64,000 nucleotides of DNA from an uncultured Pelagibacteraceae bacterium (GTDB lineage: Bacteria; Pseudomonadota; Alphaproteobacteria; Pelagibacterales; Pelagibacteraceae). The stretch is from NCBI GenBank assembly GCA_902592325.1, contig CACJEC010000001.1, positions 124,001 through 188,000 on the forward strand. The letters run 5' to 3'. Numbering within the stretch: the first letter of the stretch is position 1; each line of letters begins with the position of its first letter. Both the position numbers and the translations under genes were made by a program. The notes below the pieces were generated by a model. The model worked only from the letters and a program-made list of their open reading frames with translations. It did no database searches and was not told where the DNA came from. Shown here one piece after another: positions 1,472 to 6,363 of the stretch.

Positions 1472-2656
1472 ATGAATTCAAAAAAAAAAATTGTTTTAGC
1501 TTACTCCGGAGGCTTAGATACATCAATAATTTTAAAATGGCTTCAAGAAAATTATAATGCTGAAGTTATTTGTTATACTGCAGATATTGGTCAAAAAATT
1601 AATAGAAAAAAAATATTAGCTAATGCAAAAAAATTTGGTGTCAAAAATATTATAATTAAAGATTTAAAAGATGAATTTGTTAAAAATTATGTTTACCCAA
1701 TGATAAGAGGACACGCAATTTATGAGGGAGTTTATTTATTAGGAACTTCAATTGCCCGACCACTTATTGCAAAAGATCAAATTAGAGTTGCAAAAAAATT
1801 TAAAGCATTTGCAGTATCACATGGTGCAACAGGTAAAGGAAATGACCAGATTAGATTTGAGCTAGGTTATCATTATTTTGGTCCAAAAATAAAAATCATA
1901 GCTCCTTGGAGAATTTGGAAATTAAAATCTAGGACTGATTTAATTAATTATGCAAAAAAACATAAAATAGAAATTCCTAAAGATAAAAAAGGTGCCCCAC
2001 CTTTTTCGATTGATGATAATTTATTTCATACATCAACAGAGGGGAAAGTTTTAGAAAATCCAAAAAATTCAGCTCCAGAATTTATTTTTCAAAGAACCAC
2101 TTCTCCTGAAAAAGCTCCTACAAAACCATCATTTGTTTATATCAATTTCAAAAATAGTGATCCAATTAGTATTAATGGAAAAAAATTATCCCCATCAAAG
2201 CTATTAGAAAAACTTAACCATCTTGCTGGTAAAAATGGAATAGGAAGGGTGGACTTAGTTGAAAATAGATTCATTGGAATTAAATCTAGAGGAGTATACG
2301 AAACTCCTGGTGGTGCATTATTAATTCAAGCACATAGAGCAATTGAGTCTGTAACTTTAGATAAAAAAACTATGCATAAAAAAGATCAAATAATGCCTAG
2401 ATATGCAGAACTTATTTATAATGGTTTCTGGTATTCAAAAGAAAGATTTAAGCTTCAAAAAATAATTGATCTTAAAAAAAATAAGGTAAATGGATCTGTT
2501 AAGTTAAAACTTTATAAAGGAAATATTATTATTCATTCAAGAATTACTAAAAGTAATGCCTACTCGATGAAAAAAGTATCTTTTGAAGAAAATAAAACTT
2601 TCAATAAAACCAATGTTGAGAGATTTATTAATTATCACAAAAAAAAGCTCAAATAA
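1472..2656 (+). CDS. argG: Argininosuccinate synthase
   Basis: Joins citrulline and aspartate with ATP to form argininosuccinate, the penultimate step of arginine synthesis, in the cytosol. The ATP pyrophosphatase P-loop AYSGGLDTS sits at residues 10-18; other family stretches are ATGKGNDQIRFE (citrulline/aspartate site) and STEGKVLENP. At 394 residues it matches the usual bacterial type of about 400, not the longer E. coli form. The codon run after the start is A-rich (NSKKKK), normal for this genome. It lies 3 bp after the IalB-like gene and 6 bp before the photolyase-like gene on the same strand, so it may be part of a four-gene transcript. Confidence 0.97.
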   Translation: MNSKKKIVLAYSGGLDTSIILKWLQENYNAEVICYTADIGQKINRKKILANAKKFGVKNIIIKDLKDEFVKNYVYPMIRGHAIYEGVYLLGTSIARPLIAKDQIRVAKKFKAFAVSHGATGKGNDQIRFELGYHYFGPKIKIIAPWRIWKLKSRTDLINYAKKHKIEIPKDKKGAPPFSIDDNLFHTSTEGKVLENPKNSAPEFIFQRTTSPEKAPTKPSFVYINFKNSDPISINGKKLSPSKLLEKLNHLAGKNGIGRVDLVENRFIGIKSRGVYETPGGALLIQAHRAIESVTLDKKTMHKKDQIMPRYAELIYNGFWYSKERFKLQKIIDLKKNKVNGSVKLKLYKGNIIIHSRITKSNAYSMKKVSFEENKTFNKTNVERFINYHKKKLK

Positions 2657-2662
2657 TTTAAA

Positions 2663-3805
2663 ATGAATTTTGTTCCTTCAAGAGCTTCGGCAATTGAGAA
2701 TCTGAATAAATTTGTTGAAAATAATCTTTCAGATTATTCTAGGTTAAGAAATTTTGATTTTGGTCCAAAAAACAGATCAAATATTTCTTGTCTCTCACCT
2801 TATATAACTCACGGTATAATTTCTGAACTAGAATTAATAAAAAAATCTTTAAGTAAATTCTCATTTTTAAAAAATGAAAAATTTATTCAAGAAGTTCTAT
2901 GGAGAACTTATTGGAAAGGTTGGTTGGAATTAAGACCTAATGTTTGGACAGATTATCTAAACGAACTTAAAAAAATTCGTGAAGATTTTAAAGACAATGC
3001 TAATTACAAAAATGCTATTGAGGGTAAAACTGATATTGAATGTTTTAATCAATGGGTAAAAGAATTAAAAGAAAACAACTATTTACACAACCATGCAAGA
3101 ATGTGGTTTGCAAGTATTTGGATTTTTACTTTGGATCTTCCTTGGCAACTGGGAGCAGAAGTTTTTATGAAACACTTATATGATGGAGATGCTGCTGCAA
3201 ATACTCTGGGATGGAGATGGGTTGCTGGAATTCAAACCCAAGGTAAAAATTATCTAGCTAGTGAATGGAATATTAAAAAATTTACAAATAATAGATTTAG
3301 CAATATAAAACTCAATGAAAATGCTCCTTCAAAGATAAGCAGCAAAACTTATGCGGCATCAAAATTAGAATTTAACAATCCCCAAAATTTTAAAGAAAAA
3401 AATCTTCTTATTTTTGATAATAGTTTATCTTTTGAAATAAGTGATTTTAATAATCTAAAATTTAAAAAAATCTTTTTAATTTCGAACAAAAATGAAAACC
3501 GTATCATAAAGCTCAGTGAGAAATTAATAAAATTCAAGTCAAAATTAATTGAAGATCAAAAAAAGAGATTAGAAGAAAAATCAATCAACTCTGAAATTAT
3601 AGATTTAAGTGAAATACAAAATATTAATGAAAGTTCTTATGGTTTATATCCAACAGTTGGTGAAAACTTGGATTTTATAAATATAAATGATTTAAAAATA
3701 GAATTTCTATATAGAAAACTAGATCAATTTTCTTGGCAATATTGTAATAAGGGTTTTTTTAATTTTAAAAATTATATTCCAAAAATAATTACAACTTTTA
3801 ATTAG
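2663..3805 (+). CDS. Photolyase-like FAD-binding protein with the FAD domain first
   Basis: 380 residues. The first ~225 residues read as the helical FAD-binding half of a DNA photolyase/cryptochrome: SCLSPYITHGIIS, then EVLWRTYWKGW, NYLHNHARMWFAS and DGDAAANTLGWRWVAG. In ordinary photolyases this half is preceded by an alpha/beta antenna domain; here the protein starts directly at it. The antenna-like part seems to come after it: residues ~235-345 alternate strands and helices (LLIFDNSLSF, KKIFLISNK, NSEIIDLSE). The tail FSWQYCNKGFFNFKNYIPKI looks like a conserved ending. I recall similar proteins in other Alphaproteobacteria annotated only as FAD-binding domain proteins. Whether it repairs DNA or senses light is not shown. 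It overlaps the convergent 73-residue gene by 4 bp. Confidence 0.8.
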   Translation: MNFVPSRASAIENLNKFVENNLSDYSRLRNFDFGPKNRSNISCLSPYITHGIISELELIKKSLSKFSFLKNEKFIQEVLWRTYWKGWLELRPNVWTDYLNELKKIREDFKDNANYKNAIEGKTDIECFNQWVKELKENNYLHNHARMWFASIWIFTLDLPWQLGAEVFMKHLYDGDAAANTLGWRWVAGIQTQGKNYLASEWNIKKFTNNRFSNIKLNENAPSKISSKTYAASKLEFNNPQNFKEKNLLIFDNSLSFEISDFNNLKFKKIFLISNKNENRIIKLSEKLIKFKSKLIEDQKKRLEEKSINSEIIDLSEIQNINESSYGLYPTVGENLDFININDLKIEFLYRKLDQFSWQYCNKGFFNFKNYIPKIITTFN

Positions 3806-4023
3806 AACCACCTAATCATTCCAATAATCCCAGCTGTTGCGTAAAAAAATTGTAATAATAATATTCCTTTATGACCTCCTCTGTAAGCCCAAATTCCAAT
3901 TAAAATTGCTGACAATAATAATAAACAAAAACCAAAAAATTCAATTCCAATATTTAGAGCAACAAACAATGAATATAAAATGGCCGTAATAACCCCTGCC
4001 CATTCAAAAAATTTATTATTCAT
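3802..4023 (-). CDS. Small membrane protein, function unknown
   Basis: 73 residues, mostly hydrophobic, with about three membrane-spanning stretches (residues ~8-28, 30-47 and 54-71) and a Gly-rich turn WAYRGGHKG. I do not recognise the family with confidence; short PnuC-like or amino-acid-transporter-like fragments have a similar look. Its ATG overlaps the TGA of the upstream glutamine amidotransferase (ATGA), so it is translationally coupled and the last gene of the cryptochrome operon. Its 3' end overlaps the convergent photolyase-like gene by 4 bp. Confidence 0.6.
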   Translation of the reverse strand: MNNKFFEWAGVITAILYSLFVALNIGIEFFGFCLLLLSAILIGIWAYRGGHKGILLLQFFYATAGIIGMIRWF

Positions 4024-4739
4024 AAAAGTTTTTTAAAATTAGTATAAAGAATTTTGGAATAATTATTCATATCAGACATATTATCTCTCGCAGATTGATC
4101 AAATTTTTCTAATGCTCCATTTCCCAATTGATCCTCAAGAGCCTTTTTGTACTCTGGAACACATCCCCATTCATTGACAGTAGTATCCTTAATTTCAATG
4201 TGAAATTGAATTCCATAAGCATGATTTTGATATTTAAAAATTTGATTTTTAGTAACTGGAGATGAGGCTAATAAAGTTACCTCTTTGTTATTCTCAATTC
4301 CTTGGACTTCATAAGAATGCCATTGTAAACTTTTGATTTGCTCTGGAAATTTTGAAAAAAGATTATCTTTGTTTTTTTCATTGGTAAAATTAATATCCAT
4401 AATACCTATTTCTGCTGGTTGAGATTTAACTACTTTGCCACCAATAACTTCACCTAATAACTGGCACCCCAAACAAAAACCCAAATAAGGTTTTTTCAAA
4501 TTAATAACGAATTCTTTGATTGCTTTTTTTTCTTCAATTAACCAAGGATAATCTTTTTCCATAAACGTATCCATTGGACCACCCATACAAAACATCCCAT
4601 CAAATTTACTAAGATCACTTGGAATTTTTTCACCTTCATCAAGCTCTATAGTGGTTAAATTTAATCTATCAGCCAACATTAGATCTTTAATGTAACCAGG
4701 GTCTTCAATTTTAATATGCTGTAATACAATTATGTTCAC
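4020..4739 (-). CDS. Class I glutamine amidotransferase-like protein
   Basis: 239-residue stand-alone glutamine amidotransferase domain. The nucleophile elbow GFCLG places the catalytic Cys at residue 89; the His/Glu partners are in QFHIE (H180, E182), so the triad is complete. The oxyanion region MGGPMD is at residues ~52-57. Such stand-alone domains, related to the GMP-synthase N-half, act as gamma-glutamyl hydrolases or ammonia donors; the partner here is unknown. It starts 5 bp after the DUF2256 gene and ends in an ATGA overlap with the membrane-protein gene, so it belongs to the cryptochrome operon. Family is clear, substrate is not. Confidence 0.85.
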   Translation of the reverse strand: MNIIVLQHIKIEDPGYIKDLMLADRLNLTTIELDEGEKIPSDLSKFDGMFCMGGPMDTFMEKDYPWLIEEKKAIKEFVINLKKPYLGFCLGCQLLGEVIGGKVVKSQPAEIGIMDINFTNEKNKDNLFSKFPEQIKSLQWHSYEVQGIENNKEVTLLASSPVTKNQIFKYQNHAYGIQFHIEIKDTTVNEWGCVPEYKKALEDQLGNGALEKFDQSARDNMSDMNNYSKILYTNFKKLL

Positions 4740-4744
4740 TAAAA

Positions 4745-4873
4745 TTAGCTTAGCTTAGAACACTTCTTTGAACAATATTTAACTCTATCCCAATTTAGCT
4801 TCCATTTCTTTCGCCAAATAAAAGGTCTTTTACAAACAGGACAAATTTTTGATGGTAGATTTTCTTTTTTCAC
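4745..4873 (-). CDS. DUF2256 zinc-ribbon-like micro-protein
   Basis: 42-residue ORF starting with GTG, below the length usually called. It has CPVC at residues 11-14 and CSKKC at 34-38, separated by the aromatic/basic stretch RPFIWRKKWKLNW. This is the DUF2256 pattern as I know it, a presumed four-Cys zinc-binding protein often encoded next to or fused with cryptochrome/photolyase-related genes. The GTG overlaps the TGA of the cryptochrome gene (GTGA), indicating translational coupling, and the amidotransferase gene follows after 5 bp. Function is unknown; a role with the cryptochrome is inferred from linkage only. Confidence 0.8.
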   Translation of the reverse strand: MKKENLPSKICPVCKRPFIWRKKWKLNWDRVKYCSKKCSKLS

Positions 4874-6363
4874 TTAATTGTATTTTGTTTTATGAATTTG
4901 TCTGCTGCAGATAAAATTATTTTTTTTCTATCAGTATTCATTTTATCAAAGATACGAACCATCATCGACAATCTAGGATTTTTTAAAAAGAATTTTCTAT
5001 TTCGGTCTATAAATCTCCAATACAATCCATCCATTGTATTGCACCATTCTCCTTTTTTAAAATCCATCATTTTCATAAAATAAGCTGATCCACAGATATA
5101 AGGTTTGGTCGCAAAAATTCCACCATCACTAAATAAACCCATCCCATAAACATTTGGAACCATTACCCAATCAGAAGAATCCACAAACATTTCCATAAAC
5201 CATTTATAAACAATTGTAGGCTTAATCTCACAAAGGTTCATTATGTTAGATAAAATCATTAATCTCTCAATGTGATGAGACCATCCATGTTTTACAGCGT
5301 TTTTAATAGCATGATCTAAAGGTGGTAAACCTGTAGAACCCTCATACCAGGATTTTTTCATTTTTCTATTATGTTTGAAAAAGTTGTTTGTTTCCAATTC
5401 GTCAGAATAACTTTGATAAATTCCACGCATGAATTCTCTCCAGCCAATTACCTGACGAATATATCCCTCTAATGAGTTCATTCTTATTTTATTTTTTTTG
5501 TGAAACTCTAAAACTTTTTGAATAATAAATTCAGGAGTTATAAGACCTAAATTAATATAGGGACTTAAAGCACTATGAAACAGAATATTATCTTTTTGAT
5601 TTACAGCATCTTCATAATCACCAAACATATTTGATTTTTCTTTTATAAAAAAATTTAAAAGTTTTACTACTTCATCAAATTCTGTTGCAAGCCAGAAGTC
5701 CTTTGTGTTACCAGGGTGATCTTTAAATAATTTTTCAATAATAGGTTTTAACTTTTTTGTATGCTTAGTTTCATTAATTTTAGGAAATTTTGGTATTAAA
5801 ATATCTTTAGGTAATTTATTTCTATTTTCTTCATCAAAGCTCCATTTTCCTCCAACTGGATTTCCATCAGCGCCTATTAATATTCCAGATTTTTTTCTAA
5901 CTTCTTTATAAAATGTTGCCATGAAAGGTTTTTTAGTTTTTTTTAAATAATTCTTAAATTCATTTCTTGAATTTAAAAACATTGAGGTTTGAATAATATT
6001 CCAATTAATTTTTTCTTTTTTTAAAAATTGTGAAATTTTCTTTTCAAAAAATTTATCTTCAACTTCAAAGCTTGAGATTTCTTTAATCTTTTTTTTGATG
6101 ATTATTTTTTTTAATTTTTTAAAATAATCATCTTTAAAATCTCTGTCCTCAATTTTTAGATAGTCTAATTTATATTTATTCTTTTTGAGACTATCAGCAT
6201 AAGAACGCATGGAAGATAAAAATAACAAGATTTTTTGCTTATGGTGTTTTTCATAAGTACATAATCCGTTATCTTCTGCCATAAAAAATAGATGGTCCTT
6301 TTTGTAGCGGTCGAGGTATTTTAATGGAAATAATTGATTACCAAGTATAAAAAATAACTTCAT
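4870..6363 (-). CDS. Cryptochrome/photolyase-related protein (FeS-BCP/PhrB-like lineage)
   Basis: 497 residues, full length for the deoxyribodipyrimidine photolyase-related family. The N-terminal alpha/beta domain starts FFILGNQLFP. The C-terminal FAD domain contains LSPYINLGLITPE (~266-278), GYIRQVIGWREFMRG (~300-314), HIERLMILSN (~364-373), DWVMVPNVYGMGLFSDGG (~398-415) and LYWRFIDRNR. The (6-4) photolyases of this lineage bind a 4Fe-4S cluster with four Cys. Here I see C378, C424 and C441, and not the CxxC pair I would expect near residues 430-440, so cluster binding is doubtful. It heads a leftward operon with DUF2256, an amidotransferase and a membrane protein, and is divergent from the SDR gene with a 27-bp gap. 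Confidence 0.87.
   Translation of the reverse strand: MKLFFILGNQLFPLKYLDRYKKDHLFFMAEDNGLCTYEKHHKQKILLFLSSMRSYADSLKKNKYKLDYLKIEDRDFKDDYFKKLKKIIIKKKIKEISSFEVEDKFFEKKISQFLKKEKINWNIIQTSMFLNSRNEFKNYLKKTKKPFMATFYKEVRKKSGILIGADGNPVGGKWSFDEENRNKLPKDILIPKFPKINETKHTKKLKPIIEKLFKDHPGNTKDFWLATEFDEVVKLLNFFIKEKSNMFGDYEDAVNQKDNILFHSALSPYINLGLITPEFIIQKVLEFHKKNKIRMNSLEGYIRQVIGWREFMRGIYQSYSDELETNNFFKHNRKMKKSWYEGSTGLPPLDHAIKNAVKHGWSHHIERLMILSNIMNLCEIKPTIVYKWFMEMFVDSSDWVMVPNVYGMGLFSDGGIFATKPYICGSAYFMKMMDFKKGEWCNTMDGLYWRFIDRNRKFFLKNPRLSMMVRIFDKMNTDRKKIILSAADKFIKQNTIK

Follow-up and report, generated by a model that had tools for sequence, protein, structure and literature searches.

The main finding in the window, that is, the whole 64,000-nucleotide stretch of DNA that was analyzed, is a gene for a 380-aa protein (Table 1), very probably a NewPHL, also called short photolyase-like (SPL), protein of SAR11: a CPD photolyase with its domains in the inverted order and a displaced antenna-type domain at the C-terminus. 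The assignment is made with high confidence from the layout, the named relatives, and secondary descriptions of the class, the reference sequences themselves standing outside our alignments. In this class an N-terminal FAD half is followed by a C-terminal "Z-domain", and CPDs are repaired in single-stranded DNA (PMC13274461, PMC9426592). The original prediction held such an arrangement to be unusual for the superfamily, a claim that has to be dropped: the inverted class is already described (PMC13274461, PMC9426592), being credited to Emmerich et al. 2020 in PMC13274461, and Phr7 and Phr4/5/6 are described as inverted photolyases as well (PMC9426592). Within this class, whose layout and activity are already described, the 380-aa protein is conserved and unexceptional. 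No paper on the SAR11 member was found in a literature search of partial coverage.

Table 1. Positions of the photolyase genes, their parts, and adjacent genes (positions in the window, unless a locus is named)
Feature	Position	Strand	Remarks
Argininosuccinate synthase (argG), directly upstream	1472..2656	+	identity read from sequence
NewPHL-type (short photolyase-like) gene, inverted domain order	2663..3805	+	380 aa, intact ORF
N-terminal catalytic FAD half, residues ~1-207, all helical	2663..3283	+	aligns with E. coli photolyase 203-395; E77, W80, R81, N143, R146, M147, W161, W184, W186
Linker, residues ~208-243	3284..3391	+	poorly conserved, modeled with lower confidence
C-terminal alpha/beta "Z-domain", residues ~244-380	3392..3802	+	antenna-domain-like fold; conserved terminal motif D354..W358..G364-F-F..I372
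Class I glutamine amidotransferase-like gene	4020..4739	-
Second photolyase, prokaryotic (6-4)-photolyase family	4870..6363	-	PF04244 then FAD_binding_7, normal order
Split inverted photolyases	L135:1034-2160, L137:1306-2609, L138:1252-2597		similar ORFs in L136, L139
Fused inverted photolyase, Deinococcus sp. AJ005 plasmid p380k	L144:1899-3269		456 aa

The only Pfam family recognized in the 380-aa protein is FAD_binding_7 (residues 74-198, E 1.2e-17), and neither the PF00875 antenna domain nor PF04244 was found there by Pfam. In a sequence alignment against proteins of solved structure, residues 6-197 correspond to residues 203-395 of the E. coli photolyase, and thus the protein starts where the canonical FAD half starts, with no antenna in front of it, as had been proposed. 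Beyond residue ~207, the sequence finds no partner in the alignment with the E. coli enzyme. The models of the better known classes fit poorly: there is no N-terminal PF00875, and the class I family PRK10674 of NCBIfam scores 74.5 bits where 506 are required; the cryptochrome DASH model TIGR02765 scores 50.5 bits where 317 are required; and of the marks of the Fe-S prokaryotic (6-4) photolyases (FeS-BCP), a PF04244 N-domain and four Fe-S cysteines, the protein has no PF04244 and no conserved cysteines after the FAD core. The features of NewPHL/SPL, namely no antenna before the FAD domain, a C-terminal alpha/beta domain, and a tryptophan dyad, are all present.

The catalytic residues are largely retained. 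E274, W277, R278, N341, R344, and M345 of E. coli correspond to E77, W80, R81, N143, R146, and M147, respectively, and D372, D374, N378, W382, and W384 to D174, D176, N180, W184, and W186. In the E. coli enzyme, E274, W277, N341, M345, and W384 belong to the CPD pocket and R344, D372, D374, and N378 to the FAD site, and W382, W359, and W306 are the electron-transfer tryptophan triad. The triad is reduced to the dyad W184-W161, since W382 and W359 are kept and F109 occupies the position of W306; further, R342 is replaced by His144 and W271 by Phe74. The conserved positions are nearly all invariant, or nearly so, in the alignment of 39 diverse homologs, which are full-length proteins with 32-89% identity to the 380-aa protein, among them named alphaproteobacterial ones such as that of Ruegeria (Roseobacteraceae). 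A tryptophan dyad is stated for the NewPHL of D. shibae (PMC8948257).

The C-terminal domain was characterized by structure modeling. The AlphaFold2 model of the whole protein, built from an alignment of 51 rows (the window and the GTDB-locus sequences only), has pLDDT 83.6 and pTM 0.84. It contains strands at 247-251, 270-274, 310-314, 325-329, and 347-350 with helices between them, so that residues 247-350 have a beta-alpha-beta topology, and it ends in a conserved helix at 365-377. The alpha/beta character expected for residues ~235-345 was thus confirmed; the range was set slightly short, the domain covering residues ~244-380. In a Foldseek search with the whole model, photolyases were matched over ~220 columns, the FAD half matching 1dnp and 1owl. 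Residues 230-380 were also modeled alone (pLDDT 81.8, pTM 0.77) and compared with the PDB, as the original prediction had suggested. The first three matches are the (6-4) photolyases 5kcm, 8a1h, and 9q8f, aligned over 124-130 columns with a probability of 0.99 and a query TM-score of 0.48-0.49. Of the first 19 places, 10 go to photolyases or CryB; the E-values are modest (best 7.5e-3). As the FAD half of the targets is helical, these matches, for which the output gives no target coordinates, probably fall on the alpha/beta antenna domain. Since the C-terminal domain alone best matches (6-4) photolyases, whose sole alpha/beta part is the antenna domain, the order is the FAD half followed by an antenna-like domain; it is inverted, and results neither from a deletion nor from an unrelated tail. 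The earlier idea of permuted domains is borne out as far as the order is concerned: two entire domains have changed places, and neither is circularly permuted within itself.

At the sequence level, the comparison is less definite. By hhalign, the C-terminal domain aligns with class I antennae, with separately encoded antenna ORFs (see below), and with both merged at 5-53% probability in a mostly consistent register; the controls SDR, GATase, ArgG, AKR, and FolD give at most about 2%, a weak contrast as these were single sequences. A search of the C-domain profile against PDB sequences found nothing meaningful, and none of the Pfam models recognizes the domain; hence sequence alone leaves its identity unsettled. 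No similarity to the PF04244 domains of SAR11 was found by sequence comparison either, and a case for homology with the antenna built on sequence only would be weak.

Relatives with a similar order were also found. In Deinococcus sp. AJ005, the fused protein starts with FAD_binding_7, which is followed by a Cys-rich segment and then by a PF00875-like C-terminal antenna domain (residues 300-395, E 7e-4, under the Pfam curated cut-off). In several Alphaproteobacteria, the FAD half has an ORF of its own (244-295 aa), and a second, short ORF that resembles an antenna overlaps it or directly adjoins it downstream. Two of three such short ORFs tested match PF00875 weakly in Pfam, and a profile made from ORFs of this kind covers, by hhalign, the full length of the class I antenna with 94-96% probability. 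In some of the split and fused proteins, the FAD core is likewise followed by a Cys-rich stretch. The split layout is that of Synechococcus phr4/phr5, but in another phylum; for marine Synechococcus and Cyanobium, the phr4/phr5 and phr6 layout is described as an inverted FAD half and antenna, and Phr7 with its Z-domain as closest to Phr4/Phr6 (PMC9426592).

The FAD-half tree was rebuilt without the class I row L147 and without a very long Fe-S outgroup. The NewPHL-like proteins form one clade (100/99), which holds the 380-aa protein and its homologs from Ruegeria, Peteryoungia, and other Alphaproteobacteria in a tree built without A8LJA9 and M7YZC8, and the split and fused inverted proteins form another (94/87). 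In the tree with a (6-4)-type and a DASH-like row, the two groups are sisters (91/81). The sister proteins retain a more recognizable antenna, fused to the C-terminus or encoded by a gene of its own; the simplest reading of the Z-domain is therefore a diverged, displaced antenna domain.

These relatives raise the question of substrate, since inverted Fe-S proteins Phr4/Phr6 have been proposed to be (6-4) photolyases (PMC9426592). That the 380-aa protein is one too would fit the nearest fold of its C-terminal domain, the antenna domain of prokaryotic (6-4) photolyases, and the position of its FAD half as a sister to a group of which some have a Cys-rich segment. However, this segment is absent from the protein, the characterized NewPHLs repair CPDs, and the adjoining gene already encodes a (6-4)-type photolyase, so that we consider a (6-4) activity very unlikely. 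The adjoining gene is the second, normally ordered photolyase that had been noticed about 1 kb away, the gap being 1.1 kb. The Fe-S cysteines known from A. fabrum PhrB are missing from its product (C350 is replaced and the C438-x2-C441 segment is deleted), the CxxC motif occurs in none of the 52 SAR11 copies of the (6-4)-family photolyase, and the protein resembles the reported Fe-S-free Prochlorococcus type. Between the two photolyases lies the glutamine amidotransferase-like gene, which is found at the same place in 47 of the 80 SAR11 loci.

A simple N-terminal truncation, leaving a class I photolyase without antenna and with an unrelated tail, could account for the lack of a Pfam family and for the weak profile-profile similarity to antenna domains. 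It is nevertheless highly improbable: the C-terminal fold matches photolyases first in the PDB, the domain is conserved across Alphaproteobacteria, sister proteins have antenna-like domains at the same position, and in the trees the FAD half falls outside class I. A C-terminal part unrelated to the antenna, which by the original prediction would speak against the permuted order, was not observed, given the photolyase matches and the C-terminal, sub-cut-off PF00875 of a sister protein.

It is about as likely as not that the inversion happened a single time, in an ancestor shared by the NewPHLs and the split and fused inverted photolyases, and that the NewPHL C-terminal domain is a degenerate antenna, still positioned against the FAD half but no longer recognizable by sequence; NewPHL/SPL would then be derived, as opposed to the proposed antenna-less ancestor of the superfamily. 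The alpha/beta domain at the other end, together with a sister group having a more recognizable antenna there, makes the derived origin a reasonable alternative. The related inverted, split, and fused forms are relevant to the choice between an ancestral and a derived origin of the short photolyases.

The named relatives place the window in a SAR11 (Pelagibacterales) genome. Of the 36 genomes of the same genus that were searched, 22 have a full-length ortholog and two others a partial copy; in a second family of the order, an ortholog is rare (2/24 genomes). In all 80 SAR11 loci taken from GTDB genomes, the match spans practically the full protein. Across the class, a match at E <= 1e-25 was found in 34 of 337 genomes, SAR11 itself counted, and in most of these the frame is open over ~380-450 aa. 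Median pairwise dN/dS values of 0.08 (FAD half) and 0.135 (C-terminal domain) indicate purifying selection on both; together with the whole-length conservation in SAR11, this argues that the layout is neither a chance ORF nor an assembly artefact. No relative was found in viral contigs by single-protein and alignment searches. The gene order AKR, small ORF, argG, NewPHL-type gene, (GATase), (6-4)-type photolyase is kept in SAR11, the second photolyase being still seen in 74 of the 80 loci, some of the rest being cut by contig ends. The 6-bp gap and the conserved order suggest that argG and the NewPHL-type gene are co-transcribed. Elsewhere, in Ruegeria, Peteryoungia, and Asticcacaulis, NewPHL-type genes occur on large plasmids (L140, L141, and L143), where an AarF/ABC1/UbiB kinase gene adjoins or lies near them.

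SAR11 bacteria are among the most abundant organisms of the sunlit ocean. Most sampled SAR11 genomes carry a NewPHL-type gene, usually at a fixed place beside the (6-4)-type photolyase, and none of the 61 genomes of the order has a DASH-type protein above the curated cut-off (44 have sub-threshold photolyase matches). NewPHLs are said by Emmerich et al. often to replace DASH photolyases, and the absence of a DASH-type protein is in line with a NewPHL in this role. Since most sampled genomes carry it and none has a recognizable DASH protein, the NewPHL-type protein is a candidate for the main single-strand CPD photolyase of SAR11.

By analogy with the class, we infer FAD binding, light-driven electron transfer to CPDs, CPD repair, and single-strand preference for the SAR11 protein. 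The N-terminal helical half would bind FAD and flip the damaged dinucleotide into the conserved pocket; blue light would excite FADH-, an electron would pass to the cyclobutane dimer and split it, and the two-tryptophan chain W184-W161 may re-reduce the flavin. The displaced antenna-type Rossmann domain would most likely shield the FAD side of the catalytic half; the C-terminal domain reportedly seals the FAD site from solvent (Emmerich et al.). A cryptochrome-like light sensor is a highly improbable alternative: the superfamily includes both sensors and repair enzymes, and repair activity in SAR11 is itself a prediction, but the CPD-binding pocket is conserved, characterized class members repair CPDs (PMC13274461, PMC9426592), and there is no signaling tail or partner gene, the neighbors being argG, the GATase-like gene, and the (6-4)-type photolyase.

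Among known systems, the NewPHL/SPL proteins of Dinoroseobacter shibae (A8LJA9) and Methylobacterium mesophilicum (M7YZC8) share the inverted order, the tryptophan dyad, and the alphaproteobacterial distribution. The SAR11 proteins are shorter, mainly in the C-terminal domain (376-382 aa, compared to mostly 380-428 aa in the other alphaproteobacterial members found in this analysis). The Prochlorococcus Phr7 (PMC9426592) likewise has the FAD half followed by a Z-domain, lacks Fe-S cysteines, and belongs to an abundant open-ocean picoplankter; unlike the SAR11 protein, it is cyanobacterial, and the likeness is drawn from its published description. Phr4/Phr5 and Phr6 of marine Synechococcus and Cyanobium are inverted too, and their relatives found here are the nearest sister of the FAD half, but they have a more recognizable PF00875-like antenna, often encoded by an ORF of its own, and, in several cases, Fe-S-type cysteines. 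The class I CPD photolyase of E. coli (1dnp) is homologous in its FAD half, with 24% identity across ~220 columns and the same core pocket residues, and differs by the N-terminal antenna, the full tryptophan triad, and extra C-terminal helices after the FAD core. Finally, the prokaryotic (6-4) photolyase PhrB of A. fabrum (4dja), which differs in its normal order, its Fe-S cluster, and a FAD half of another group, has the antenna domain closest in fold to the C-terminal domain of the SAR11 protein.
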